Below, in pieces: positions 4,339 through 56,769 of a DNA stretch of 64,000 nucleotides (the first letter of the stretch is position 1; each line of letters begins with the position of its first letter). The stretch is from assembly GCF_900107375.1 (NCBI RefSeq), contig NZ_FNPT01000002.1, positions 1 to 64,000 on the forward strand, in the 5' to 3' direction. A model generated the notes under the pieces. It was not told the origin of the DNA. It saw only the letters and a program-made list of their open reading frames with translations, and did no database searches. The stretch is from Lysobacter sp. yr284. GTDB taxonomy: Bacteria; Pseudomonadota; Gammaproteobacteria; Xanthomonadales; Xanthomonadaceae. Made by a program: the position numbers and the translations under genes.

Positions 4339-5808
4339 ATGTGCGGCATTCTCGGAATCGTCGGCAACACGGATGTCGCCGCCCAGCTCTACGACGGACT
4401 CACCGTGCTGCAGCACCGCGGCCAGGACGCGGCCGGCATCGCCACCGCCGACGGCGCGCGCCTGCGCGTGCACAAGGGCAACGGCCTGGTCAGCGACGTG
4501 TTCGACGAGGCGTCGATGCGCCTGCTCGAAGGCCGCGTCGGCATCGGCCACTGCCGCTACCCGACCGCCGGCAGCGAAGGCTCCGACGAGGCCCAGCCGT
4601 TCTACGTCAACTCGCCGTTCGGCATCGCGCTGGCGCACAACGGCAACCTGATCAACACCGACACGCTGCGCCGCGAAGTGTTCGAGCAGGACCGCCGCAA
4701 CATCAACACCGAATCGGATTCGGAAGTGCTGCTCAACGTGTTCGCGCACGAGCTCGACCGCCAGCGCGCGCTGACCCCGGAGGCCGCGTTCGCCGCGATC
4801 GAGGGCGTGCACCGCCGCTGCGTCGGCGGCTATGCCGTGGTCGCCACCGTGCTCGGCCTGGGCCTGGTCGCGTTCCGCGACCCGCACGGCATCCGCCCGC
4901 TGGTGCTGGGCAAGCGCCGCATCGGCAACCAGGACGAATACGCCGTCGCCTCCGAATCGGTGGCGCTGGACCTGCTCGGCTTCGAGCGCGTGCGCGACGT
5001 GCGCCCGGGCGAGGGCATCGTGGTCACCGCGCGCGGCGAGCTGTTCTCGCACCAGTGCGCCGAGGTGCGCAAGCACACGCCGTGCATCTTCGAATACGTC
5101 TACTTCGCCCGTCCCGACTCGATGATGGACGACGTCTCGGTGCACAAGGCGCGCATGCGCATGGGCCAGACGCTCGGCGAGAAGATCCTGCGCCTGCGCC
5201 CGGACCACGACATCGACGTGGTGATCCCGATTCCCGACACCTCGCGCGACTCGGCCCTGGAAATCGCCAACACCCTGGGCGTGAAGTACCGCGAAGGCTT
5301 CATCAAGAACCGCTACGTCGGCCGCACCTTCATCATGCCGGGGCAGGGCGAGCGGGCGAAGTCGGTCAGGCGCAAGCTCAATCCGATCCCGCTGGAGTTC
5401 CGCAACCGCGTGGTGCTGCTGGTCGACGACTCGATCGTGCGCGGCACCACCTCGCGCCAGATCGTGCAGATGGCGCGCGACGCCGGCGCGCGCAAGGTCT
5501 ACCTGGCGTCCGCCGCGCCGGCGGTGCGCCACCCGAACATCTACGGCATCGACATGCCCTCGGCCGAGGAACTGGTCGCGCACGGCCGCAGCGACGAGCA
5601 GGTGCAGGAACTGCTGGGCTGCGACTGGCTGATCTACCAGGACCTCGACGCGCTGGAACAGGCGGTGTCCGGGCCCAAGCACCGCATCGACCACTTCGAT
5701 TCGTCCTGCTTCAACGGCGAGTACGTGACCGGCGTGGAGCCGGGGTATTTCGAGCGCATCCAGCAGATGCGCTCGGACGACGCCAAGAAGACCCGCCGCG
5801 CTTCGTGA
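4339..5808 (+). CDS. purF: Amidophosphoribosyltransferase
   Basis: First committed enzyme of purine synthesis: it makes phosphoribosylamine from PRPP and glutamine. The start MCGILGIVG exposes the N-terminal nucleophile Cys2 after Met removal, typical of Ntn-type glutaminase domains with no propeptide. The C-terminal half carries the PRPP-binding loop [14 protein letters not shown] at residues 358-371. Length (489) is close to E. coli PurF (505). It lies downstream of cvpA as in many gammaproteobacteria, and its stop codon overlaps the GTG start of the DUF455 gene. Confidence 0.97.
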
Positions 5809-6644
5809 GCGCGGCGGCGCCTGAGGCGCCGGCGTCGAGCCTGTTCGATGCCGCGCGCGCCTGCCTCGATGCGGCCACGCCGCAGGCCAAGGTCGAGCTG
5901 ACCTTCGCCTATGCCAGCGCGTTCGCGCGCGGCGAGCTGGCGACGCCCGACGATGCGCCGCCGCCCGAGCCGATCCGCATGCCCGGCCGGCCGTCGAAGC
6001 CGGCGCTGGTGCATCCGCGCGAACTGCCCAAGCGCGGCTTCGGCACCGCCGAAGGCCGCGCCGCCTTCGTCCACGCCATCGCCCACATCGAATTCAACGC
6101 CATCGACCTGGGCTGGGACGCGGTCTACCGCTTTCGCGGCCTGCCGGCGCAGTTCTATGCCGACTGGGTCGGCGTGGCCAACGACGAGGCGCGCCACTTC
6201 CAGTTGCTGCGCGAGCGCCTGCGCGAGCTGGGCTACGACTACGGCGATTTCGACGCCCACAACGGGCTGTGGGAAATGGCCGAGAAGACCGCGCACGACG
6301 GCCTGGCGCGCATGGCCCTGGTGCCGCGGGTGCTGGAGGCGCGCGGCCTGGACGTGACCCCGGGCATGATCGTCAAGCTGCGTTCGATCGGCGACACCGC
6401 CACCGTCGCGATCCTCGAAACCATCCTGCGCGAAGAGGTCGGCCACGTCGCCGCCGGCTCGCACTGGTTCCGCTGGTACTGCGCGCGCGCCGGCGTCGAT
6501 CCGAACCCGCGCTTTCGCGAGCTGCTGGCCGAATACGCGCGCGCCGTGCTGTACGGCCCGTTCAATTTCGACGCGCGCAGCGCCGCCGGTTTCGACGACG
6601 AAGAGCTGCGCATGCTGGAAGCCTTCGCCAACACACGCGACTGA
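5805..6644 (+). CDS. Ferritin-like DUF455 domain protein
   Basis: A 279-residue protein starting at the GTG that overlaps the purF stop (GTGA), so translation is probably coupled to purF. The middle and C-terminal parts show the four-helix di-iron pattern: an [11 protein letters not shown] helix, DEARHFQLL, and [13 protein letters not shown], giving two ExxH-type ligand sets. DUF455 proteins resemble the tRNA hydroxylase/ferritin-like superfamily; no substrate is known to me. A GTG start is chosen because the preceding frame runs back inside purF without a plausible start and the homology begins just after it. Confidence 0.88.
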
Positions 6645-6666
6645 GCCGATCGGCGCTGAAAGCTTT

Positions 6667-6754
6667 TGTGGGAGGGACTTCAGTCCCGACGCTTTCGGGT
6701 CAGTTCGCCGTGCGCTGAGCGAAAGGCATCGGGACTGAAGTCCCTCCCGCAAAA
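6667..6754. repeat. Inverted repeat pair, GTGGGAGGGCCTTC family
   Basis: Left arm TGTGGGAGGGACTTCAGTCC and right arm GGACTGAAGTCCCTCCCGCA face each other downstream of the DUF455 gene. The internal A/T changes in both arms compensate each other, so base pairing is preserved relative to the copy at 1857. Confidence 0.8.
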
Positions 6755-6868
6755 AAACACATCCGTGCGCGCTCGCTGCGCCGCGTCATTCCGCCACCTT
6801 CGCGCGCAAAGCGCCGCCGCGGCGGATATGCCATGGTCGCCGTTCCACAGACAGGGAAGGGGGAGACT

Positions 6869-46390: not shown

Positions 46391-47134
46391 ATGGGCGTGG
46401 TGCTGATCGAACGTTGGACCGAGTTCGCCGGCGCGGTGCTGCACCGCATCGATGCCGATGGCAACCGCGCCTATGCCTTCCGCTGCGCGCGGCCGCCGGT
46501 CACCGCCCAGGGCGCGCCCGATGCCTACCACCCCGACGACACCGGCAGCGGCAGCCTGCGCGACAGCGGCTGGCCGGACGGCGCCTGGCGCGAGCGGCTG
46601 GTGCCCGACCCGCACCGGCCGCAGCAGCCGTTGCGCCAGTCCGAGGGCGCCTGCGCCGGCTGTTTCGTCTCGACCACCGCGCTGGCCGACCCGCGCTTTC
46701 CGCGCAGCAATCCGCAGGCCTATCTCGACGCGGGGCGGGTGCCGTATCTGGCCATGCCCGCGGCCTGGCTGGCGCAGCCCGGCGCGGGCGGCGTCGGCGA
46801 CTTCGTCGTCGTCCACGAATGCGCCACCGCGCGCAGCAGCTTCGGCCTGATCGGCGACGCCGGCGGCGGGCGGGCGCTGGGCGAGATGTCCGAGCGCATG
46901 GCCAGCGACCTGTCCGGGATGCGCGCGCACGCGCGCAGCGGCCGCGGCGCGCCGCAGGGGCCGCTGCTGTGCGTGGTGTTTCCCGGCTCGCGGCGCGAAC
47001 CGGCCTGGCCGCTGCGCAATTCGACCCTGCGCGCGCGCTGCGAGCAATTGCTGCGCCCGCTCGGCGGGACGTCGCGGCTGGCGAAGATGGCCGACTCGCT
47101 GGCGGGGCTTCCGGCTTCGCCGCCGGAGGAATAG
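46391..47134 (+). CDS. GH75-like (chitosanase family) candidate protein
   Basis: A 247-residue protein without a signal peptide that I can see. The central part VGDFVVVHECATARSSFGLI then GDAGGGRALGEMSERMASDL resembles the GH75 core: hydrophobic strand with VVH, Asp156 in IGDAG, and Glu165 in LGEMS exactly 9 residues later, the spacing of the catalytic Asp/Glu in fungal chitosanases. The N-terminal third has a C-x2-C (ACAGC) and a polar run. The upstream 46156-46390 gap is AT-richer than the flanks. If it is an intracellular or atypical exported enzyme the true start may differ. Function is inferred only. Confidence 0.55.
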   Translation: MGVVLIERWTEFAGAVLHRIDADGNRAYAFRCARPPVTAQGAPDAYHPDDTGSGSLRDSGWPDGAWRERLVPDPHRPQQPLRQSEGACAGCFVSTTALADPRFPRSNPQAYLDAGRVPYLAMPAAWLAQPGAGGVGDFVVVHECATARSSFGLIGDAGGGRALGEMSERMASDLSGMRAHARSGRGAPQGPLLCVVFPGSRREPAWPLRNSTLRARCEQLLRPLGGTSRLAKMADSLAGLPASPPEE

Positions 47135-47152: not shown

Positions 47153-47400
47153 GGTAGGAGCGGCGCAAGCCGCGACTGCGCCACTGCGCGTGCGGCGCAG
47201 GTCGCGGCAATCGGGCCGCATTTCTTCGTCCTGCGCGGTGAGCTTGTTGCACCGCGGTCGCGGCTTGCGCCGCTCCTACAGGGGGATTGCGCACCTCGCT
47301 CGTTCGCTGGATGGCCGCGGCTCAACCGGCACACCGTCTGCCGCGTTCCGCGAAGCCCGACTGCAGGAGCGGCGCAAGCCGCGACCGCGCCACCGCACTT
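47153..47400. repeat. GTAGGAGCGGCGC repeats between the GH75-like and MTase genes
   Basis: An inverted pair at 47153-47183 and 47252-47282 is followed by a lone arm at about 47361-47392. The gap 47135-47529 holds no supported gene. Confidence 0.75.
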
Positions 47401-47529
47401 GCGAGGCAGGCCCGCAGTAGCCGAGTCGCGCTTGCGGCCCACGCGCCGGCGACGACGTCGCGCCGCCTCGCACAACGCCCTGAGCGCACCCGGCCGCCAC
47501 CTGCGCCGCGCCCGCAACCGGGCCTCGAT

Positions 47530-48600
47530 TCAACGCGGGACTTGGTGCGCGGCCTGATCGGCCAGCGACAGGTCCAGGCGCACCAGCCGGCCCAGCCGGT
47601 CGCGGCGTTGCGCGCGCAGGTACCAGTGCTCGCGCAGGCGCGGCAGGCGCAGCGGCGGGTGCACGGGTTCGCCCCACAGGGTCAGTTCGTAGCGGCGTTC
47701 GTGCAGCCACCACAGCAGGCGGTCGAACTCGGCCTGGTCGTCGGGCAGCAGCAGGTCGGCGTCGGCGGGTTCCGGCGCGCCGGGCTCGGCCAGCCAGCGC
47801 GGGTAGCTGCCGTACAGCGCGAACGCGAATCCGGCCTCGCGCAGCGCTTGCAGCTCATCGGCGGTGCTGTCGAGGCAGACGCGTTCGCGCTGCTTCTGGA
47901 ACACCAGCGCGTATTCGTGGCTGCGGTCGGTGGATGCGTCGCCGGGCGCCAGCGGCCGCGGCTCGCGGGCGTAGCACAGCAGGCGCTCTTCGCGCGCCAC
48001 GAACAACGCGCCGAGGATCCGCGCCAGGTCCCAGGCCAGCGGCAGCGTGCGGCCGCCGAGGTTCGGGTTCTCGGCCATGGCGATGCAGTAGCCGCCCTCG
48101 GGCAGGGCCGCGCACACGGCGTGGAAGATGTCGCGCAGGCGCTGCAGGTAGGCCTCGTAGTCGCGCTCGAGATAGAGCTGGCCGGCGTCGGCGGCGGGCG
48201 CGCCGGCGCGGTCCGGCCAGCGGCAGCCGAAGTAGGGCACGTTGGTCAGGCACAGCCCGAACGGCAGCGGCGCCGGCGCAACCGGCAGGCCGCCCACGGC
48301 GACCGGCGCGTCGATGCCGTGGCGTTGCAGCCGCTCGCGCGCCAGTTGCGCGCGCGCCGGGTCGATCTCCAGCCCGCAGCCGCGGCGGCCTTCGAGCGCG
48401 GCGGCGAGCAAGGTGGTGGCGAAGCCGCAGAACGGGTCGAACACGCGCGCGCCGGGCGCGGCGTAGTGGCGCACGAACGGGCGCATCTGCGCGACCCAGC
48501 CGCAGTCGCGGCCGCCGAACGCATCGCGCGCGCGCAGGTCGTCGGGCAGCTGCAGGTGCGGCGGGTCCGGCTCCAGCACCAGCCAGCTGCGGCTATCCAT
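47530..48600 (-). CDS. DNA/RNA-methylase-like protein with C-terminal nucleotidyltransferase-like domain
   Basis: A 356-residue two-part protein. The N-terminal part has a class I methyltransferase fold: SAM motif DPFCGFATT at 55-63, an acidic LEID at 77-80, and TNVPYF at 119-124 in the place of the (D/N/S)PPY motif of N6-adenine and N4-cytosine methylases. HEYALVF at about 228 resembles the last strand of those enzymes. The C-terminal part (about 246-356) fits the nucleotidyltransferase pattern: Gly264-Ser265, then Asp280-Ala-Asp282 followed by LLL, and Asp343 in RLDLSL. The start at 48600 overlaps the radical SAM stop by 8 bases, so they form an operon. No target is known. Confidence 0.75.
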   Translation of the reverse strand: MDSRSWLVLEPDPPHLQLPDDLRARDAFGGRDCGWVAQMRPFVRHYAAPGARVFDPFCGFATTLLAAALEGRRGCGLEIDPARAQLARERLQRHGIDAPVAVGGLPVAPAPLPFGLCLTNVPYFGCRWPDRAGAPAADAGQLYLERDYEAYLQRLRDIFHAVCAALPEGGYCIAMAENPNLGGRTLPLAWDLARILGALFVAREERLLCYAREPRPLAPGDASTDRSHEYALVFQKQRERVCLDSTADELQALREAGFAFALYGSYPRWLAEPGAPEPADADLLLPDDQAEFDRLLWWLHERRYELTLWGEPVHPPLRLPRLREHWYLRAQRRDRLGRLVRLDLSLADQAAHQVPR

Positions 48601-49792
48601 CGGCGCGCTCCGCGAGGCCGGCGTTTGCGTCCGCCCCGCCGCCGGCGTCGCCGCGCGCGGGCGTGTCCGCGCCGGGCGGCCACAGCACGTCGCGGTCGGG
48701 TTGCCAGCCGGCGCAGAGCCGGCCGTTGCCGTGGAACACCAGCTTGTAGATGTCGCCGGAGGCGTGGCGGCGGTGCATCGCGGCATAGTCGGAGGCTTCG
48801 AACACCACCTCCAGGCCGCTGCGCGGCTCGCGCAGGCGCAGGTTCCAGAAGTAATAGCCTTCGGTGATGCGCTGCGGCGTCAACTGCGGCCACCACGGCG
48901 CGTCCATGCACGCCGACAGCACCTGTTCGATCGGCACCCGCCCGGCTTCGAGATAGCGCGCGGTGGCGTTGTCGCGATAGCCCGGGCCCAGGCGCGAGAA
49001 CTCGCGGAAGATCACCGTGCCGGCGCCGCAGGCGCGGGCCCAGTCGAGGTAGGCGCGCACACCGTCGGCGTCGTCGATGCCGCCGCGCTGGACGATGCAG
49101 ACCTGGCGCAGCGGCAGCGCTTCGGACAGCCGGCGCGCCACGCGCGCGAACGCGGCGCCGTCGGCGATGGCCTCGCCGTCACGGAAACGCATGATGGCCT
49201 GGTTGCGCGCGGCGTCGTGGTGATGCCGCGACAACTCCAGCCACGACAAACCGAATGCGCGCAGGGCGGCGATCAACTCCTCGCCGCGGCCGCGGGCGAA
49301 GCCGGCGCCGTTGCTGTAGAGCACGCGCTCCTCCACTTGCACCCCGTCGCGTTCGGCCGCGGCCAGCGTCGCCAGCAGGCGCAGGAACCAGTCTTCGTCG
49401 TCGCTGGATTCCAGCCCCGACAGCGACCACGACAGCGGCAGCCCGCGCAGTTGCGTCAGCGCCGCGCTCAGGCGCTCGAAATGATCGGGGCCGGGGCGCA
49501 GGGTCTGCGCCATCGCGCCGGCGTCGAGCAGGCGCAGGTTTTCCGAACAGAACAGGCACCGCGCCGAGCACGGCCGCGCGGCGGCGTAAGGGGTGAAGGT
49601 GACGGGTTGGGCGACGCGGTAGCGGCGTTCGCCGATGCGGTGCTCGCGCCAACGCGCGGCATCGTGTTCGCCCGGCGCGCGCCGGGCCAGCTGCGGCGTG
49701 GTCGCGCGCAGGCGCTGGAACAGGGAAGAGGCCGCGCTGAGCGGGAGCGTGCCCGGGTCGGCGGTCGCTAGCCCTTCGACAGGGGCTGGCAT
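48593..49792 (-). CDS. Radical SAM protein
   Basis: A 399-residue enzyme with the 4Fe-4S motif C75-x3-C79-x2-C82 (PCSARCLFC). A beta/alpha barrel follows, with a GE-like LSWSLSGLESSDDEDW stretch and VCIVQRGGIDD, HHHDAARNQ between. C-terminal residues about 300-370 form a compact domain with EGYYFWNLRLREPRSGLEVV and YKLVFHGNGRLC. It starts about 70 residues before the Cys motif. It immediately precedes the MTase-NTase gene (8-base overlap). Substrate unknown; the pair may modify a nucleic acid or a nucleotide. Confidence 0.82.
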   Translation of the reverse strand: MPAPVEGLATADPGTLPLSAASSLFQRLRATTPQLARRAPGEHDAARWREHRIGERRYRVAQPVTFTPYAAARPCSARCLFCSENLRLLDAGAMAQTLRPGPDHFERLSAALTQLRGLPLSWSLSGLESSDDEDWFLRLLATLAAAERDGVQVEERVLYSNGAGFARGRGEELIAALRAFGLSWLELSRHHHDAARNQAIMRFRDGEAIADGAAFARVARRLSEALPLRQVCIVQRGGIDDADGVRAYLDWARACGAGTVIFREFSRLGPGYRDNATARYLEAGRVPIEQVLSACMDAPWWPQLTPQRITEGYYFWNLRLREPRSGLEVVFEASDYAAMHRRHASGDIYKLVFHGNGRLCAGWQPDRDVLWPPGADTPARGDAGGGADANAGLAERADG

Positions 49793-49825
49793 CGGGTTCG
49801 TCCTGGAATCCGTGGCGGGTGGGTT

Positions 49826-49926
49826 GCCCTCACCCTAGCCCTCTCCCGCAAGCGAGAGAGGGGACTGTACGCGGCGGCCGCAAAGCGTTGCGGCTCTTGA
49901 GCCCCTCTACCGCTCGCGGGAGAGGG
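49826..49926. repeat. Inverted CCCTCTCCCGC repeat
   Basis: CCCTCTCCCGCAAGCGAGAGAGGGG at the left and CCCCTCTACCGCTCGCGGGAGAGGGG at the right each fold on themselves and pair with each other. This repeat type is common in Xanthomonadaceae and pseudomonads. It lies between nadV and the radical SAM gene and may separate their transcripts. Confidence 0.8.
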
Positions 49927-49943
49927 GCAGCGCGAGCGCCGCT

Positions 49944-51368
49944 TCAAAGCCGAGCCGCGTTCGCCCGTTCCCGCACCTGCGCGAACGTCCAATCCTCGAC
50001 CAGCCGGCCGTCCTCCCACACCGTCACCATCGCGTCCTCGTAGCCCACCGGCTTGGCCGCGGCTTCCAGCGACGGCGCATCCGCAGGCACCGGCACGGTC
50101 TTGAAGTGGCCGTATTCGCGATGGCGCAGCAAGGTCATGCGGCCGCGCTTGCTCGACTTGCCCTTGTCGGTGACCGGGTCCTTGTAGACGTCGATCCATT
50201 CGCCGTCCACGCGCGCCGCCGAGCACTTCAGCGCGAACTTCTGGGTGTCGCGGTCGAGCCGCTGCAGCAGCGCGCCGCCCATGCCGAAGGCGAGGTTGTC
50301 GGTGGCGTAGCCGTAGCTGGTCGCGCGTTCCAGGATTGCGCGGATGCTGGTCGGGTTGATGCCGTCGCCCTGGATCACCCGCACGTGGTTGAGCACCTTG
50401 TAGCCCTTGCCGTTGACGGTGTGGCCGAAGGCTTCGTCGAGCAGGGTCAGGCACTGGTGCACGACATCGACCGGGTCGCCCGAGTCCGGGCGCACCACCA
50501 AGGTCGCGCCCGAGGCGATCACCTGCTCGCGCAGGGTCTTGCCCCAATGCTCGCGGATCGCGTGGAAGATGTCGTAGCTGTCCGACACCACCGCGACGAT
50601 CGCGCCGGGCTTGGCGAACTGGTCGAGCATGTTGCGGTAGGCGTCGACCTCGCGTTCGCGGCCCCAGCTGGTGATGGTGCTGTGCTCGGCCGCCGGAATC
50701 GAATAGCCGGCCATCGGCTCGTGGTAATAGCGCTTGGCCAGCAGCAGGCCGGAGACGGTGTCGGTGCCGAGGAAGTTGACCAGGTGCGCGGCGCCGCCGA
50801 GCGCGGCCGATTCGGTGCTGGATACGCCGCGCGCGCCGAAGTCGTGCAGCTTGAACGGCAGCTGGCCTTCCGGATCGTCGCTGGTGCGTTCCAGGAACTG
50901 GCGGATGGTCTGCTTGGCGTGCCAGCTGATCGTGGCCACCGTCACCGGGTACCACAGGCGCAGCAGCAGGGTTTCCAGGTACGACGGCACCCAATAGGCC
51001 TGCGGGTCGGTCGATTCGATCGTCACCAGCGCCTGGTGCGTCGGCACCACCGTGCCTTCGGGCACGGCGCGGACCCGGATCGGCATCAGCCCCTGGTGGT
51101 GGTCGACGATGTAGCGCCAGCCGGCCTCGTTGAACGGTTCGCCGTGCGCGGCGTACAGGTCGCGCGCTTCGTCGATGTCGGCATGGGTGACCGGCTTGGC
51201 CAGGTATTCCTTGAGGATCGCCTGCAGGCCGAAGAACACCGTGCGGTCGTACACGCCGCCGCGCGATTCGATGTAGAAGAACGTCGCATCGGTGCCGGGC
51301 GGGTACTGCAGCCAGTGGCTGGCCTTGTAGCTGTCGGTGTTGAGCAGCAGGTTGTCGAGGCATTGCAT
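49944..51368 (-). CDS. nadV: Nicotinamide phosphoribosyltransferase
   Basis: Makes nicotinamide mononucleotide from nicotinamide and PRPP. Length 474 and motifs fit the NAMPT/NadV family rather than PncB: YKASHWLQYPPGT at the start, HDFGARGVSSTESA, VSDSYDIF, VVRPDSGDPVDVV, and GDGINPTSIR. It is upstream of a nadM-Nudix gene in transcription order reversed: the nadM-Nudix gene (51445-52503) lies first and nadV 76 bases after it, so they form a salvage operon nicotinamide to NMN to NAD+. A PncA deamidase is not needed. Confidence 0.95.
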   Translation of the reverse strand: MQCLDNLLLNTDSYKASHWLQYPPGTDATFFYIESRGGVYDRTVFFGLQAILKEYLAKPVTHADIDEARDLYAAHGEPFNEAGWRYIVDHHQGLMPIRVRAVPEGTVVPTHQALVTIESTDPQAYWVPSYLETLLLRLWYPVTVATISWHAKQTIRQFLERTSDDPEGQLPFKLHDFGARGVSSTESAALGGAAHLVNFLGTDTVSGLLLAKRYYHEPMAGYSIPAAEHSTITSWGREREVDAYRNMLDQFAKPGAIVAVVSDSYDIFHAIREHWGKTLREQVIASGATLVVRPDSGDPVDVVHQCLTLLDEAFGHTVNGKGYKVLNHVRVIQGDGINPTSIRAILERATSYGYATDNLAFGMGGALLQRLDRDTQKFALKCSAARVDGEWIDVYKDPVTDKGKSSKRGRMTLLRHREYGHFKTVPVPADAPSLEAAAKPVGYEDAMVTVWEDGRLVEDWTFAQVRERANAARL

Positions 51369-51444
51369 GACGGGAAGCTCCTTCGCGTCGGGTGTGGCCG
51401 GCGGTCTGTCCGCCGGCGGGAGGGCCGGGCGGTGCGCGATGCGC

Positions 51445-52503
51445 TCAGCCGCGGCCCAGGAAGTATTCGAGGATGTGCAGGTGGTCTTCGAACAGCTGCG
51501 GGCTCATCTCCAGCGCCTCGCTGACCGGGAACCAGCGCGCCTTGTCGGCGTCGTCGCCGCCGCGCACCTGCGGCAGTTCGCCGGCCGGGAAGTCGAAGTG
51601 GAAGGCGTGGGTGATGGTGCGGCCGCGCGCGCTGCGTTCGGGATGGTCGAACACGCGTTCGCCCTTGATCGAGCCCTTGAGCACCGCCAGCGGCACTTTC
51701 AGCCGGGTTTCCTCGCGCAGTTCGCGCAGGCAGGCCTCGAGCAGGCTTTCGTGCTGGCCGACGAAACCGCCCGGCAGCGCCCACAGGCCGCGGCCCGGCT
51801 CGGCGCGGCGGCGCACCAGCAGCACGTGGCCGGAATGCACCACCACGGCATCGGTGGTGACGAAGGTCGGCGCGTACGGCGCATCGGCCCAGGCCGCGCG
51901 GTACTGCTCGATGAACTGGTACTCGGCGACCAGCTGCTTGAACGCCGGCGAGCTCTTGCGGAACGCCTCGAGCATGTCGAACACCGGCGCCGGCACGTTG
52001 GCGCGGATCAGCATCAGCCCGCCGTGGCTGTCGAGCTGGTTGGCCTCGAACAGGTACTTGCGCAGCTCGGTGGCCGACAGCGTGGCGGTGTGGTTGACGT
52101 CGACCAGCGGCCACTGCGGGAATTCGCGCAGGTAATAGCTGGAGGCGTCCTTGTCCATGCCGATCAGGCCGATGCGCGCATCCGCCGCGCCGCCGTCGGC
52201 GCGCACCGCCTCGGCGACGCTGCGCTGGACGTTGGCGATCCACTGGCTCTCGTTGTAGAGGTGGTCGCGCAGCGGGCGCACGATCAGGCGGTCGGCGCTG
52301 TCGGCGAGCGCGGCCTGGATCATCACCGCGCGCTCGGCGACGGTGAACGGGTTCTTGACGGTGCGGGGAGTGTCGGCGGAACCGACCAGGAAGACGACCT
52401 TGGCGGCCTTGCCCAGCGCGTGGCGGGCGACGGCGGCGTGGCCGTTGTGGAAGGGCTCGAAGCGGCCGATGAAGACGAGGTAATCGTATTGCTGCAGTGC
52501 CAT
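51445..52503 (-). CDS. nadM: Bifunctional NMN adenylyltransferase / Nudix hydrolase
   Basis: A 352-residue fusion. Residues 1-180 are an NadM-type nucleotidyltransferase with GRFEPFHNGH at residues 13-22 and an ISSxxxR-like C-terminal motif equivalent. Residues about 205-340 are a Nudix domain with the box GGFVGQHESLLEACLRELREE (part of GX5EX7REUXEEXGU). It adenylylates NMN to NAD+ and probably hydrolyses ADP-ribose or NAD-related pyrophosphates. It is transcribed ahead of nadV, 76 bases between genes. The start at 52503 (MALQQYDYLVFIGRF) is the only good choice. Confidence 0.93.
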   Translation of the reverse strand: MALQQYDYLVFIGRFEPFHNGHAAVARHALGKAAKVVFLVGSADTPRTVKNPFTVAERAVMIQAALADSADRLIVRPLRDHLYNESQWIANVQRSVAEAVRADGGAADARIGLIGMDKDASSYYLREFPQWPLVDVNHTATLSATELRKYLFEANQLDSHGGLMLIRANVPAPVFDMLEAFRKSSPAFKQLVAEYQFIEQYRAAWADAPYAPTFVTTDAVVVHSGHVLLVRRRAEPGRGLWALPGGFVGQHESLLEACLRELREETRLKVPLAVLKGSIKGERVFDHPERSARGRTITHAFHFDFPAGELPQVRGGDDADKARWFPVSEALEMSPQLFEDHLHILEYFLGRG

Positions 52504-52717
52504 GAGAATCCCTCACGGAGTTGAAGTGGCCGGCGGTCTGTCCGCTGGCGTATGGCGAATGCTACGCCGATGCGAAGCGCCGTCAAGTGCCGCGCGTCGC
52601 CGCGGCGGACGCCGGAGAATTCCGCCAACGGCCGGCTCGAGGCGGCCGCTTCGCTGCGGCCGGCGCGGCCGGTGTCGTGGAGATCGCTACAATCGCGAAA
52701 AGCAAGGGAGGGCGACG

Positions 52718-53716
52718 ATGGCGATGCAGGTTCCGCAGTACTGGGCCGAGGCGCGGGTGCAGGAGAAATTCGGGCGCGGGCATGTCTCCGGACGGGTTTC
52801 GCTGACGGTGCGTCGCTTCGGTTGGTCCGATGCCAGCCAGTCCGAGGCCCAGGCCATGGCCGAGGCGCGCGTGCGCGATGCGTTCGAGCGCATCCTCGCC
52901 GGCGAGAAACTGCCGCGCAACGAGCCGCGCGTGCCTTACGACGCCGAAGGCCTGCCGATCCGCGAGGAAATCGTCGCCCGTTACGGCAACGAAGTGATCA
53001 CCCGCAACAGCTACGGCGCGCGTTGCCTCAACTCACCCGACGTGTTGTTCGCCGACGTCGACTTCAAGCCGCTTCCGCCGGTGCGCCTGGGCGGGCCGAT
53101 GGCCGCGCTCTCGCTCGCCGCCGGCGTGGCCTGCGGCGTGCTGGTCCACCCGGTCGCCGGCATCGTCGCCGCGATCGCGACGCTGCTGGCGATCGGCATG
53201 GTCCGCGCGAAGCATGCGCGGCGCCGTGACCGCATCGAAGGCGGCGGGCCGGAGGCGCGCGCGCTGGCGCCGGTCAAGGCCTTCGTCGCGGCCAATCCGG
53301 ACTGGCACCTGCGCGTCTACCGCACGCCCAACGGTTTTCGCCTGCTGGCGATGCACCGCACCTTCGATCCGCTCGACCCGCAGGTGAACGCATTCTTCGA
53401 AGCGATCGGCGCGGATTCGTACTACGCGCTGTCGTGCAGGCACCAACACTGCTTCCGCGCGCGCGTCAGCGGCAAGCCGTGGCGCATGGGCCTGCGCGAA
53501 CACATGCCGTACCGGCGCAGCGCCTGGCCGATCGCCGACGAACACCGCCCCGAGCGCGAGCGCTGGGTGGCCGAGTATGAGCGCAAGGCCGAAGGCTTCG
53601 CCGCCTGCCGCTTCGTCGAAAGGCTGGGCGGCCGCGATTACGTATCGGCGACGCAGTCGGTGCAGCGCTTGCACGACGATCTGTGCAGCGCGACGCGCGA
53701 CCTGCCGATGGCCTGA
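52718..53716 (+). CDS. Conserved membrane protein with FRARxxxKPWR motif
   Basis: A 332-residue protein. A hydrophobic segment at about 126-160 (MAALSLAAGVACGVLVHPVA then GIVAAIATLLAIGMV) forms two helices. The C-terminal half carries DSYYALSCRHQHCFRARVSG and KPWR at 246-256, a motif I recall from an uncharacterised family found in bacteria, algae and plants. GGGAG precedes the ATG at 52718; a second ATG two codons on is possible. The surrounding divergent nadM gene has no known link. Catalytic role unknown. Confidence 0.7.
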   Translation: MAMQVPQYWAEARVQEKFGRGHVSGRVSLTVRRFGWSDASQSEAQAMAEARVRDAFERILAGEKLPRNEPRVPYDAEGLPIREEIVARYGNEVITRNSYGARCLNSPDVLFADVDFKPLPPVRLGGPMAALSLAAGVACGVLVHPVAGIVAAIATLLAIGMVRAKHARRRDRIEGGGPEARALAPVKAFVAANPDWHLRVYRTPNGFRLLAMHRTFDPLDPQVNAFFEAIGADSYYALSCRHQHCFRARVSGKPWRMGLREHMPYRRSAWPIADEHRPERERWVAEYERKAEGFAACRFVERLGGRDYVSATQSVQRLHDDLCSATRDLPMA

Positions 53717-53801: not shown

Positions 53802-55373
53802 TCAGCGCGGTATCAGCGCTTCGAGTTCGCGATACAGCTCGTCCGGCAGTCGGGTGCGGGCCCGTTGCAGGCGTACGCGCAGCGTTTGCGGCGATGCCTG
53901 TTCGAGCGAACCGAAGCGATAGCGTCCGAAGATGGTCCATGTGCGCAGTTCGGACAACAGCCTGTCTTCCGCCTGCGAGGCCTGCGGTTCGGACAGCGCA
54001 TCCAACAGGAAGTCCAGCGCCTGCCATTTGTCCAGCAAGGTGGCGGCGACGGTCAGCCGGGCGCGGTAGTGCGGGCGCAATTCCCAGGCTTGCCGCAGCG
54101 CCGGCGCCGTCAACTTGGCGTGGCCGCGCGCGTAGGCCCGCAGGGCTTCGGACGCGACCCGGTGATCGCTGTCGTGCAGCGCCCGCGCCAATACCTCGGG
54201 CAGGCCGACGGCTGCGCCGCGGATGAGTCCGCGCAGCGCCAGCAGCCGCAGCCGCGACGAGGCCTGCGACAACCACGGCATCAACCTTGCCTCGTCCTCG
54301 GGCAGGGCGCATTCGCTCAAGGCCGTCAGCGCGATGCGCGCCCGCGCCGAGTCGCCCGCCTCCAGCGCGTCGCGCCACATCCGCCGGGGTTCTTCGCCGA
54401 ACCGTTCGCGCAGCAGATAGGCCGCCACGCGCCGGGGCCCGGTGGAACGGTCGAACATCGCATCGTCCAGGCTCTCGCGCAGCGAGGGCGCATCGACGCG
54501 GGCGGCCAGCCGCAGCGCATCGCGGCGCAGGGCGGGGACGCGGCGCCGGCGGGTCAGGCGCAACTCGCGGTCGAGCTGCGCCGGCGCCAACCAGGTTTGC
54601 GCCTGCGCCAGTGCGGCGCCGGCGATGCGCGGGTGCGGATCGTCGAGCGCGGCGATACAGGCGTCCGCCGCGCTGCGGGCGCCGGTCGCGACCGCGGCGG
54701 CATAGGCGTATTCGCGCACTTGCGGCGAAGCCGACGCGGTGGCGCGCCACAGCCGCTCGGCGTGGCGCGGCGCATGCAGCTGCGGCTCGACCAGTGCGCT
54801 CCAGGCGTGGGCGTAACGTTCGCGCCCGCGCATCGACAACGCCAGCTCGATCAGGTCGAACAGCCGCTCCGGCTCGCGTTGGAGCAACGAATCCAGCAGG
54901 TTTTCGGCGACCCGCCGGACCGGATCGGCCCAGTCGCCGCAACGGATCAGCGCCGCCGCCATCGCCACGCGGCCGGGCCAGTCGGCGAACGCGCGCAGCG
55001 CGTACTCGCGCAGATAGCCGTCGTAATCGCAGCTGGCCACGAACAGGCAGGCCTGGGCGCGTTCGCGGCTTGCGGACTGCAACACCTGCAAGGGCATGCG
55101 CTCGTCGGGCCAGACCGGAACCGGCCGGAACGGCCGCCCGCCATGAGCGGCAAGGCGTCGCAGAAAATCGTAATGCCGGGGGCTCTTGCGGATCGCCTCC
55201 TCCAGGCGCAGCAGCGCGCGCGCCGGCAGCGCTTGCAGCTCGCCGGCGGCGCTTTCCAGTTCGCTCTCGCCGAAGACGTAGTCGTGCCGGCCGCGCAGCG
55301 CGTGCAGGCCCGCGGTCAGGCAGCAGTTCCAGGCCGCCGGCAGGCGCGCCGGGCTGGGAAAATCGATCAGCAT
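53802..55373 (-). CDS. HEAT-repeat protein
   Basis: A 523-residue alpha-solenoid. Successive paired helices with the pattern LR.YA..A...WP..., DPHPRIAGAALAQA and DSDHRVASEALRAYARGHAK run through the length. Such proteins act as protein scaffolds. The N-terminal 60 residues (MLIDFPSPARLPAAWNCCLT) are distinct. The end is 34 bases upstream of the S4 gene start in the opposite order: S4 (55408-55632) precedes it on the minus strand, so co-transcription is likely. No known partner. Confidence 0.78.
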   Translation of the reverse strand: MLIDFPSPARLPAAWNCCLTAGLHALRGRHDYVFGESELESAAGELQALPARALLRLEEAIRKSPRHYDFLRRLAAHGGRPFRPVPVWPDERMPLQVLQSASRERAQACLFVASCDYDGYLREYALRAFADWPGRVAMAAALIRCGDWADPVRRVAENLLDSLLQREPERLFDLIELALSMRGRERYAHAWSALVEPQLHAPRHAERLWRATASASPQVREYAYAAAVATGARSAADACIAALDDPHPRIAGAALAQAQTWLAPAQLDRELRLTRRRRVPALRRDALRLAARVDAPSLRESLDDAMFDRSTGPRRVAAYLLRERFGEEPRRMWRDALEAGDSARARIALTALSECALPEDEARLMPWLSQASSRLRLLALRGLIRGAAVGLPEVLARALHDSDHRVASEALRAYARGHAKLTAPALRQAWELRPHYRARLTVAATLLDKWQALDFLLDALSEPQASQAEDRLLSELRTWTIFGRYRFGSLEQASPQTLRVRLQRARTRLPDELYRELEALIPR

Positions 55374-55407
55374 CCTTGCGCTCCGAAGATACGTGCCGCG
55401 ACGCGGT

Positions 55408-55632
55408 TCAGTCCGCCGCCACCTCGATCCGCACCCCCTCGCACTCCACCACCTGCCCCGCGCGGATCTTGCAGGTCTTGCGCAGTTCCACCTGCCCGTC
55501 GACCCGCACCGCGCCGCTGGCGACGATGGCCTTGCCGCTGCCGCCGCTGTGGGCGAGGCCGGCCAGCTTGAGCAATTGGTTGAGTTCGACGAAGTCGTGG
55601 CCGGCGTCGAGGGCGAAACGGATCGGTTGCAT
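55408..55632 (-). CDS. Small S4-domain RNA-binding protein
   Basis: A 74-residue YbcJ/RlbA-like protein. The S4 fold reads FVELNQLLKLAGLAHSGGSG, KAIVASGAVRVDGQVELRK and RAGQVVECEGVRIEV. The start MQPIRFALDAGHDFVELNQL matches the family. It probably binds structured RNA, possibly ribosomal. It is followed on the same strand by the HEAT-repeat gene. Confidence 0.9.
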   Translation of the reverse strand: MQPIRFALDAGHDFVELNQLLKLAGLAHSGGSGKAIVASGAVRVDGQVELRKTCKIRAGQVVECEGVRIEVAAD

Positions 55633-55776
55633 GGCGGCGTTGCTTTGGGGCGGTGACGGGCAGGCAGGGTCGCAGCGCTGAGACCTGGACGCAAGACGTT
55701 TGCGCGCGCGGCGGCGTACTCTCGGGCCTGGGGCGCCCGCGCGGGCGCCGCCAGCCCATCTCTGCAGAGGTCGACG

Positions 55777-56769
55777 ATGAAGCGAGCCCAATACGAACAG
55801 CGCGGCCCGGTGCCGCAGGACGTGATCGACGCGGTCGAGTTCCAGACCCCGCCGCTGGCGGAGGGCCAGGTGCTGATCGAGGTGCTGGCCGCGCCGATCA
55901 ACCCGTCCGACGTGCTGACCCTGACCGGCGACTACGGCCTGCTGCCGCCGCTGCCGGCGGTGGGCGGCAACGAGGGCGTCGGCCGGGTGGCCGAACTCGG
56001 CCCGCAGGTGACCCAGCTCAAGCTCGGCCAGACCGTGCTGCTGCCGATCCAGGGCGGCAGCTGGGCCTCGCACATGGTCGGCACGGCCAAGCATCTGGTG
56101 CCGCTGCCCGACGGCGCCGATCCCAAGCAACTGGCGATGATCACCATCAACCCGCCGACCGCGCTGCTGATGCTCAGCGACATCGTCGCGCTGGAGCCGG
56201 GCGACTGGGTGATCCAGAACGCGGCCAATTCGGCCGTCGGCACGTATCTGATCCAGCTGGCCAAGGCGCGCGGCCTGCGCACGATCAACGTGGTGCGGCG
56301 CGAGTCGGCGGTGGAGGCGGTGCGCGCGGCCGGCGCCGACGTGGTCCTGGTCGACGGCGAGGACCTGGGCAAGCGCGCGCGCGAGGCGGCGCAGAAGGCG
56401 CCGATCAAGCTCGGCATCGACGCGGTCGGCGGGCTGGCGACCCAGCACATCGCCCAGGCCCTAAGCGAGGGCGGGGTGGTGGTGAACTACGGCGCGATGA
56501 GCGGCGAGGCCTGCCAGATCTCGCCGGCCTCGTTCGTGTTCCGCGACGTGTCGCTGCGTGGGTTCTGGCTGTCGCGCTGGTTCCAGCAGGCGACGCCGGC
56601 GCGGCGCGCGGAGGTGTTCGGCGAGATCGCCCGGCGGGTGGCCGCGGGCGAACTGCACGCGCGGGTGCAGGCGACCTACCCGCTGGAGCGGATCAAGGAC
56701 GCGGTGGCCGCGGCCGCCGCGGGCGAACGCGACGGCAAGATCCTGATCCTGCCCAACGGCGAGGTCTGA
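55777..56769 (+). CDS. Trans-2-enoyl-CoA/ACP reductase-like MDR protein (MECR/ETR type)
   Basis: A 330-residue NADPH-dependent reductase without zinc motifs. MDR-type Rossmann: NAANSAVGTYLIQLAKARGL is the ETR version of the GxxGxxxxxxG motif. PINPSDVLTLTGDYGLLPPL and GNEGVGRVAELG are the typical N-terminal half, and LRGFWLSRWFQQ near the C-terminus is the MECR hallmark. It may reduce enoyl thioesters in fatty-acid metabolism or detoxify 2-alkenals. Lone gene. Confidence 0.88.
   Translation: MKRAQYEQRGPVPQDVIDAVEFQTPPLAEGQVLIEVLAAPINPSDVLTLTGDYGLLPPLPAVGGNEGVGRVAELGPQVTQLKLGQTVLLPIQGGSWASHMVGTAKHLVPLPDGADPKQLAMITINPPTALLMLSDIVALEPGDWVIQNAANSAVGTYLIQLAKARGLRTINVVRRESAVEAVRAAGADVVLVDGEDLGKRAREAAQKAPIKLGIDAVGGLATQHIAQALSEGGVVVNYGAMSGEACQISPASFVFRDVSLRGFWLSRWFQQATPARRAEVFGEIARRVAAGELHARVQATYPLERIKDAVAAAAAGERDGKILILPNGEV

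Follow-up and report, generated by a model that had tools for sequence, protein, structure and literature searches.

An overlapping radical SAM and methyltransferase–nucleotidyltransferase gene pair, often linked to NAD genes, that may act on a small nucleotide-like molecule

Introduction

Beside genes for the salvage of nicotinamide adenine dinucleotide (NAD) in Lysobacter sp. yr284 lie two overlapping genes, one for a radical S-adenosylmethionine (SAM) protein (RS) and one for a methyltransferase-like protein with a further C-terminal domain (MT). They raise the question of what such a pair makes, and whether its neighbours matter. The locus is part of a stretch of 64,000 nucleotides (NCBI RefSeq assembly GCF_900107375.1, contig NZ_FNPT01000002.1, positions 1 to 64,000 of the forward strand), the whole of which is called the window here. 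The original prediction had described an 8-base overlap, a CX3CX2C radical SAM protein, an MT protein with the motifs DPFCGFATT, NVPY, Gly264-Ser265, Asp280-x-Asp282 and Asp343, and nadM and nadV upstream on the same strand, and all of these were found as described. It had also proposed a modification cassette, possibly with a role in defence. What stands of that proposal is a conserved, linked and apparently undescribed module; its core, however, is RS plus the nucleotidyltransferase (NTase) domain, with the methylase as an add-on, and the defence role was not supported.

Results

RS and the NTase domain are the conserved core

The features of the pair are as follows.

48593 to 49792, minus strand: RS gene, 399 amino acids plus stop; MoaA-like radical SAM protein, CX3CX2C
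47530 to 48600, minus strand: MT gene, 356 amino acids plus stop; fusion of an N-terminal class I amino-methyltransferase-like domain and a C-terminal putative minimal NTase domain
48593 to 48600, minus strand: overlap of RS and MT, 8 bases
47887 to 48600, minus strand: methyltransferase (MTase) domain, MT residues 1–238; assigned from PF01555, motif I (DPFxGxxTT), motif IV (T[NS]xPYF), the [SA]HEYAL motif and Foldseek
47545 to 47880, minus strand: putative NTase domain, MT residues about 241–352; assigned from motifs, secondary structure in the AlphaFold2 (AF2) model, an NTP_transf_5 profile match and stand-alone homologues

The idea that RS and MT are chance open reading frames (ORFs) was rejected, as relatives were found and the motifs are kept in 12 aligned relatives of each, with identities to the window of 39–84% for MT and 40–89% for RS. 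These alignments include 13 of the 16 full-length loci, the near copies L003, L005 and L006 having been left out. The source genome (6.25 Mb) gave one match to MT.

Linkage of the two genes in homologues, which the original prediction depended on, was seen throughout: RS is followed by the NTase domain on the same strand in all 50 loci scanned, three broken copies included, and in 48 of them the MT or NTase profile match starts -11 to +23 bases from the RS stop codon. Overlaps or short gaps between RS and MT are thus found in relatives as well as in the window, where the overlap is likely to couple translation of the two genes. Most of the 50 loci were found through MT, so that only the presence of RS is informative there; those found through RS (L084–L088, L111–L121 and L126) inform on the NTase side. 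The pairs L031/L041 and L032/L043 each seem to be one genome entered twice.

The loci found through RS indicate which parts belong together. Among 193 genomes of the phylum of L037, which is probably Myxococcota (the L037 record is a deltaproteobacterial metagenome-assembled genome), there were 23 RS matches, 12 strong (L037 and L111–L121) and 11 weak. All 12 strong loci have an NTase downstream of RS, fused in L037 and L116 and separate in the other 10, which gave no methylase match; L111, L112 and L121 are part of the NTase search model and match it by construction. Similarly, a Hymenobacter swuensis plasmid (L126) carries an RS gene 40% identical in product, followed by an overlapping stand-alone NTase gene annotated as hypothetical. 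Because the NTase stands without a methylase in these 10 loci and on the plasmid, the conserved core, judged from gene content, consists of RS and the NTase, with the methylase as an addition in some branches. The methylase as the core was rejected on the same grounds, 11 of the 12 loci L111–L121 and L126 having no match to the methylase half. In another branch (L117–L121) a long gene for a TauD-type dioxygenase directly precedes RS in 5/5 loci, with the TauD domain matched in the two that were tested; by this arrangement the dioxygenase is, like the methylase, a branch-specific partner. A tree of 38 RS genes requires three changes for the methylase fusion, of which the starred branches force only one; broken copies were omitted and the long branches of L037, L067, L116 and L126 are unsure, so nothing firm was drawn from it.

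The RS–NTase pair was found in Pseudomonadota, the phylum of L037 and Bacteroidota, and thus the core is common to probably three phyla. Its occurrence is patchy, with RS in 2 of 398 genomes of a phylum-level sample, one of them the window's own. In two genomes RS and MT are in several pieces (L071 in G733 and L072 in G743, the two fragmented copies that fall outside the spacing given above), and in a third MT has an in-frame stop (L055 in G658). Since nadV is near full length in all three, and nadM in G733 and G743, the pair seems dispensable there, unless these are errors of draft assemblies.

Carriage as prophage or plasmid cargo was rejected: there were only three plasmid hits (one Hymenobacter, two partial ones in Embleya). 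The one phage hit, Dulem virus 40, is distant (26% identity), and no viral contig matched with two peptide patterns. In that phage (L127, 5213–7366) a putative Fe-S oxidoreductase, the distant RS relative (annotated as a molybdenum cofactor enzyme) and a NAT-family gene stand in a row.

The C-terminal domain of MT is probably a nucleotidyltransferase

The assignment of the C-terminal domain to the NTases holds as far as it was tested. G264, D280, D282 and D343 are invariant in 13 MT rows (window included), and G264-S265, D280, D282 and D343 in an alignment of 12 more divergent rows (window included). They are also invariant, apart from position 265, when fused and stand-alone NTases are taken together; that position is S, T or G, S265 being replaced to give Gly-Gly in L033 and Gly-Thr in some stand-alone NTases. 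In the AF2 model of MT, built from 8 sequences (mean predicted local distance difference test score, pLDDT, 82.3), the NTase block has a pLDDT of 83–96 up to residue 350, with helices at 243–255, 265–271, 289–301 and 319–325 and strands at 261–263, 281–285, 305–308, 328–333 and 339–346. The order of these elements over residues 243–346 is the one expected of a minimal NTase, a fit that does not amount to proof of the fold.

Weak Pfam matches in the family were to MdcG, NTP_transf_5, Aminoglyc_resit, DUF2204 and AbiEii, all of them NTases, together with a few unrelated ones; as far as the tables show, no row passed a Pfam cut-off. MdcG, considered as a yardstick, had no match over its cut-off in 75 genomes, and NTP_transf_5 was used instead, with 9 of its 10 loci (L138 was left out because of stops). 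Comparison of a profile of 8 NTase domains with these nine proteins by hhalign gave a score of 36.2 (probability 59, E 9e-5), against at most 16.8 for 60 column shuffles, 14.4 for the reversed profile and at most 13.6 for five RS blocks; under other settings the score was 24.0 and the probability 25. A PDB profile search with the domain returned nothing credible, and the 50 Foldseek hits listed for the full-length MT model include no NTase by title. Taken together, the conserved GS, DxD and third Asp, the order of predicted elements and the NTP_transf_5 profile match make an NTase well supported, though not proven. The domain has the hG[ST] motif, DxD, the third D and, in the model, the helix and strand order in common with minimal NTases (NTP_transf_5, DUF2204, AbiEii, ANT(2'')-like and MdcG) but differs from them in additional invariant W, P, Y and R residues, which set it apart as a family of its own.

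The methylase domain is an unlikely sequence-specific DNA methylase

The N-terminal domain resembles class I amino-methyltransferases (PF01555 N6_N4_Mtase; Trm11/Trm14-like), with which it has the DPFxGxxTT and [SA]HEYAL motifs in common. All 13 MT rows matched PF01555 at E up to 1, the window with 40.9 bits against a cut-off of 26.7. That match covers only profile positions 169–220 of 221, around motif I, and motif IV comes after the matched part in MT and not before it. Of 27 genomes with a match to MT, the nine above 280 bits were counted as MT; the remaining 18 were short motif matches to other methylases.

The NVPY motif (TNVPYFG, residues 119–125), which had been read as a substitution of (D/N/S)PPY, is genuine: P122-Y123-F124 is invariant in the 12 more divergent rows, motif IV reads [NS][VLIA]PYF in 12/12 and (D/N/S)PPY in none of them, so that loss of the first proline is, on this alignment, a trait of the family. 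A sequence-specific DNA methylase is not supported, however. The MTase part (residues 1–238) and the NTase part (241–352) take up the protein, and neither length nor motifs indicated a target-recognition domain; because there is no room for one, sequence-specific DNA methylation by MT is unlikely. Its profile matches include both DNA amino-methyltransferases and tRNA G10 methylases (Trm11, Trm14), and the Foldseek hits are led by class I methyltransferases acting on RNA, protein and small molecules, among them Trm11, RlmO and PrmA.

RS is a MoaA-like radical SAM protein, probably with a single cluster

The cluster motif of RS (CSARCLFC; C75-x3-C79-x2-C82) is invariant in 13 divergent rows, in which the only other conserved cysteines are C232 and, nearly always, C360. 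Foldseek with the AF2 model ranked MoaA first (2fb2 and 1tv7; TM 0.47–0.58), followed by DesII, SuiB, viperin and BlsE, and anSME and EpeE were also among the hits; a radical SAM barrel is thus found by way of the predicted model. The pLDDT of this model is 74.8, and residues 74–77 and 83–97, around the cluster motif, are below 50. The sequence SLSGLE stands where many radical SAM enzymes have a GGE strand. By sequence RS is remote from known families: the window's protein matched no Pfam family at E up to 1 and only an unrelated NCBIfam entry at 0.21, Radical_SAM was matched weakly in 3 of the 13 rows (best 0.012) and PDB sequence searches gave no useful match.

MoaA (GTP 3',8-cyclase) has a second [4Fe-4S] cluster at its C-terminus, held by three cysteines. 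RS shares the CX3CX2C motif with MoaA but is only 15% identical to it and lacks those cysteines; a plain MoaA or PqqE function was rejected for this reason. As only C232 and mostly C360 are conserved outside the motif, no second cluster of the MoaA or SPASM type is expected, and RS probably carries a single [4Fe-4S] cluster.

The pair accompanies nadV in the window's family

The neighbours upstream of RS are on the same strand and have the Pfam domains expected of them.

49944 to 51368, minus strand: nadV, nicotinamide phosphoribosyltransferase (Pfam NAMPT_N and NAPRTase)
51445 to 52503, minus strand: nadM, nicotinamide mononucleotide (NMN) adenylyltransferase fused to Nudix (Pfam CTP_transf_like and NUDIX)
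52559 to 52586, minus strand: sigma-70-like promoter match 5' of nadM, from a consensus scan; the sole match within 47300–52800

The original prediction noted nadM and nadV simply as upstream genes; the position is correct, and the connection goes beyond it. In the 198 genomes sampled from the window's family (the same sample for both counts, as far as the handles show), MT is present in 25, three of them broken, and nadV in 51. All 25 MT-bearing genomes have nadV, and in 24 it lies 1.07–1.35 kb from MT, the space of RS, the exception (G701) having it on another contig; nadM is conserved as well. The chance of 25/25 would be about 7e-18 if the genomes were independent, which they are not. On these counts the NAD setting is a real association and not incidental. 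In the window it rests on gene order, since a search of the source genome gave no NrtR domain. The promoter scan of 47300–52800 gave 1 match against 0.2 expected in shuffles, a slight indication that nadM-nadV-RS-MT may possibly form one four-gene operon with a single promoter.

Among named relatives of the locus, Lysobacter enzymogenes ATCC 29487 is the closest (nadV 98%, nadM 96%, RS 89% and MT 85% identity). These are also the four values between the window and L033, and by this comparison RS and MT diverge faster than nadV and nadM.

The pair lies in NrtR clusters in a second family

The gene nrtR encodes a repressor of NAD genes. In the family of Herbaspirillum aquaticum, RS was present in 6 of 245 genomes and nrtR was in the cluster with it in 6/6: L035, L084, L085 and L088 have clusters in which pncA-pncB-nadE-nadM stands between nrtR and RS-MT, whereas in L086 and L087 a divergent nrtR is directly beside RS. 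The order nrtR-RS-MT was also found in L116. NrtR was identified by PF21906 in L035, L086 and L116 and by similarity in the others. RS-MT is thus inside or beside NrtR-linked NAD operons (pncA-pncB-nadE-nadM) here and nadM-nadV salvage operons in the window's family and, judged from gene neighbourhood, the module has ties to NAD metabolism in both of these families.

An intergenic motif, TTAGTT-N11-[CT]TAAGT[AG], occurs exactly in L035, L084, L086, L087 and L088 and with 2 mismatches in L085. It lies before pncA in L035, L084 and L088, and before RS in L086 and L087, which have no pncA there; an operator-like palindrome before RS with nrtR nearby was thus found, by sequence, only in these two loci and not in the window. 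In L086 there is a fuller palindrome, GTTAGTTT-N7-AAACTAAG, with the same 8-N7-8 layout that PMC6800001 gives for the mycobacterial NrtR site. A stricter pattern searched in six whole genomes at no more than 1 mismatch gave 6 matches, 5 of them at these loci, where one site accounts for two overlapping matches, and the sixth elsewhere (G819, C52); the reversed control gave none. This pattern was derived from the sites that it then found, and it missed those of G973 and G912; a looser pattern recovered them, with 2 mismatches and none respectively.

A further hint comes from one locus, L088, where the gene order is nadM, ADP-ribosylglycohydrolase (PF03747), RS, MT, Macro (PF01661) and a 771-residue protein. 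The last (4495–6810, minus strand) has weak isochorismatase-like, TCAD9 and dual-specificity phosphatase parts.

Discussion

A proposed nucleotide-modifying module

We propose that RS and MT form one apparently undescribed enzymatic module, often NAD-linked and tied to NAD metabolism in the window's branch, which modifies a small nucleotide-like molecule and adds a nucleotidyl group to it; we would put the probability of this reading at roughly 0.38. It draws on the linkage, the intact catalytic motifs, the NAD/NrtR neighbourhood and the common operator-like site, as they appear in the sequences, and on the predicted folds of RS and MT. In such a scheme RS, MoaA-like and probably with a single [4Fe-4S] cluster, would make a radical change to a small nucleotide-type substrate, which may come from the pyridine-nucleotide pool (NMN, NAD or ADP-ribose) or be related to it. 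The NTase domain would then transfer a nucleotidyl group, most likely AMP, onto the RS product, and the MTase domain, where present, might methylate the result, perhaps in that order. The neighbouring NAD genes could supply the substrate or recycle released nicotinamide; in the window's family their products are NadV and NadM, and in the Herbaspirillum family they are PncA-PncB-NadE-NadM together with NrtR, which may regulate RS.

A more specific version is doubtful: that RS–NTase is the core of an undescribed pathway to a new nucleotide, a dinucleotide cofactor or signal formed when a pyridine nucleotide or ADP-ribose is modified by the radical SAM enzyme and nucleotidylated. In the NAD-linked branch this product would be methylated, in another the TauD-type dioxygenase might oxidise it, and in some bacteria the NAD status of the cell would switch the pathway through NrtR.

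Several observations weigh against the proposed module. In the window's family 26 of the 51 nadV genomes have no MT, so the dependence is one-way, the MT genomes being a subset of the nadV genomes, and NAD salvage does not need the pair. In the stretches examined, no match to nadM, nadV, nrtR, pncA, pncB or nadE was found near L037, L069, L070, L111–L115 or L117–L121, and no NAD gene is annotated around the Hymenobacter pair. Because RS–NTase also occurs with no NAD gene nearby, NAD is not necessarily what the core reaction acts on; the core chemistry may act on something more general that became tied to the NAD state in the NAD-linked branch. Six weaker RS-like loci have no NTase match (0/6: phage L127, Embleya L128 and L122–L125, these last being the 4 examined of the 11 weak matches in the phylum of L037). 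The Foldseek group of RS is broad and includes the peptide-modifying enzymes SuiB and anSME. In L086 and L087 the divergent nrtR promoter, rather than RS, could be the target of NrtR. Finally, the additional genes of L088 (ADP-ribosylglycohydrolase, Macro and the 771-residue protein) occur in that one locus, none of them being matched in L111–L125.

Open-licence full-text literature yielded no paper joining radical SAM with NrtR or nadV and no recognised description of the pair, or of Lysobacter with nicotinamide phosphoribosyltransferase; the available part of PMC5343134 has no mention of radical SAM joined with NrtR or nadV. NAD metabolism is regarded as well charted. A pair confined, among the genomes sampled, to nadV-bearing genomes in one family and to nrtR clusters in another, with a core present in probably three phyla, points to a metabolite or a modification that no source we found names.

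Alternative explanations

The MT profile matches extend to RNA methylases as readily as to DNA ones, which suggested that RS, MTase and NTase might build a hypermodified tRNA or rRNA base, with NAD being used or its state exerting control. Trm11, Trm14 and RlmO point this way (PrmA methylates a ribosomal protein), and one of the 13 MT rows has a weak TRM5-TYW2 match (0.014); Trm5 and TYW2 use an NLP-type motif. We consider this unlikely, as no RNA-binding domain was matched, the distribution of RS is too patchy for a core RNA modification, and RNA modification by itself leaves the NAD and nrtR linkage unexplained.

The NAD neighbours themselves suggest a repair or clean-up role, in which the module would act on pyridine nucleotides that are damaged or modified, or on ADP-ribosyl adducts, by mending or removing them. 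NadM-Nudix upstream in the window, the ADP-ribosylglycohydrolase and Macro genes flanking RS-MT in L088 and the presence of nadV in every sampled methylase-positive genome of the window's family would all be in keeping with it, but the flanking genes belong to a single locus, radical SAM plus NTase chemistry would be a costly fit to repair, and about half of the nadV genomes manage without the methylase. It is rather unlikely.

SuiB, anSME and EpeE among the structural hits, and weak PqqE and HxsB matches in one RS row each, would suit a peptide or protein modification system, with RS serving as maturase and the NTase AMPylating proteins or acting in a similar way. Without the SPASM-type cysteines in RS, and with no conserved precursor peptide gene noticed beside the pair (short ORFs were not systematically searched), this appears quite improbable.

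An anti-phage defence or counter-defence module is improbable. In its favour are the faster divergence of RS and MT, their patchy occurrence with broken copies, a match of the methylase part to the mads_2 model (1.7e-11) and, in some relatives of RS, weak matches to viperin models (NCBIfam in 3 of 13 rows, the best at 0.0032 and none at 0.1 for the window row; PADLOC pVip at 0.00024, L121 only). Against it stand the near absence from phages and plasmids and the constant position that the pair has within an NAD operon in the window's family. The window's RS matched no PADLOC model at E up to 1, and of the 33 models matched by MT the 25 listed are all for methylases, chiefly type II or orphan ones but also PglX and mads_2. 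Judged from seven window neighbours, the setting is neither a described system nor a mobile or defence island, only nadM matching PADLOC, through its Nudix part (PDC-S07).

Other features of the locus

The gap between nadV and RS in the window contains an inverted repeat pair (49826–49939) resembling repetitive extragenic palindromic elements, with 38-nt arms that are 79% complementary; in L002, unlike the window, the nadV–RS junction is only a few bases. The long ORFs at 52688–53713 (plus strand), 53805–55901 (minus strand) and 46391–47131 (plus strand) are neighbours with no Pfam match at 0.001; for each, a complete or partial counterpart is present in some of L031–L034, which are Lysobacter relatives.

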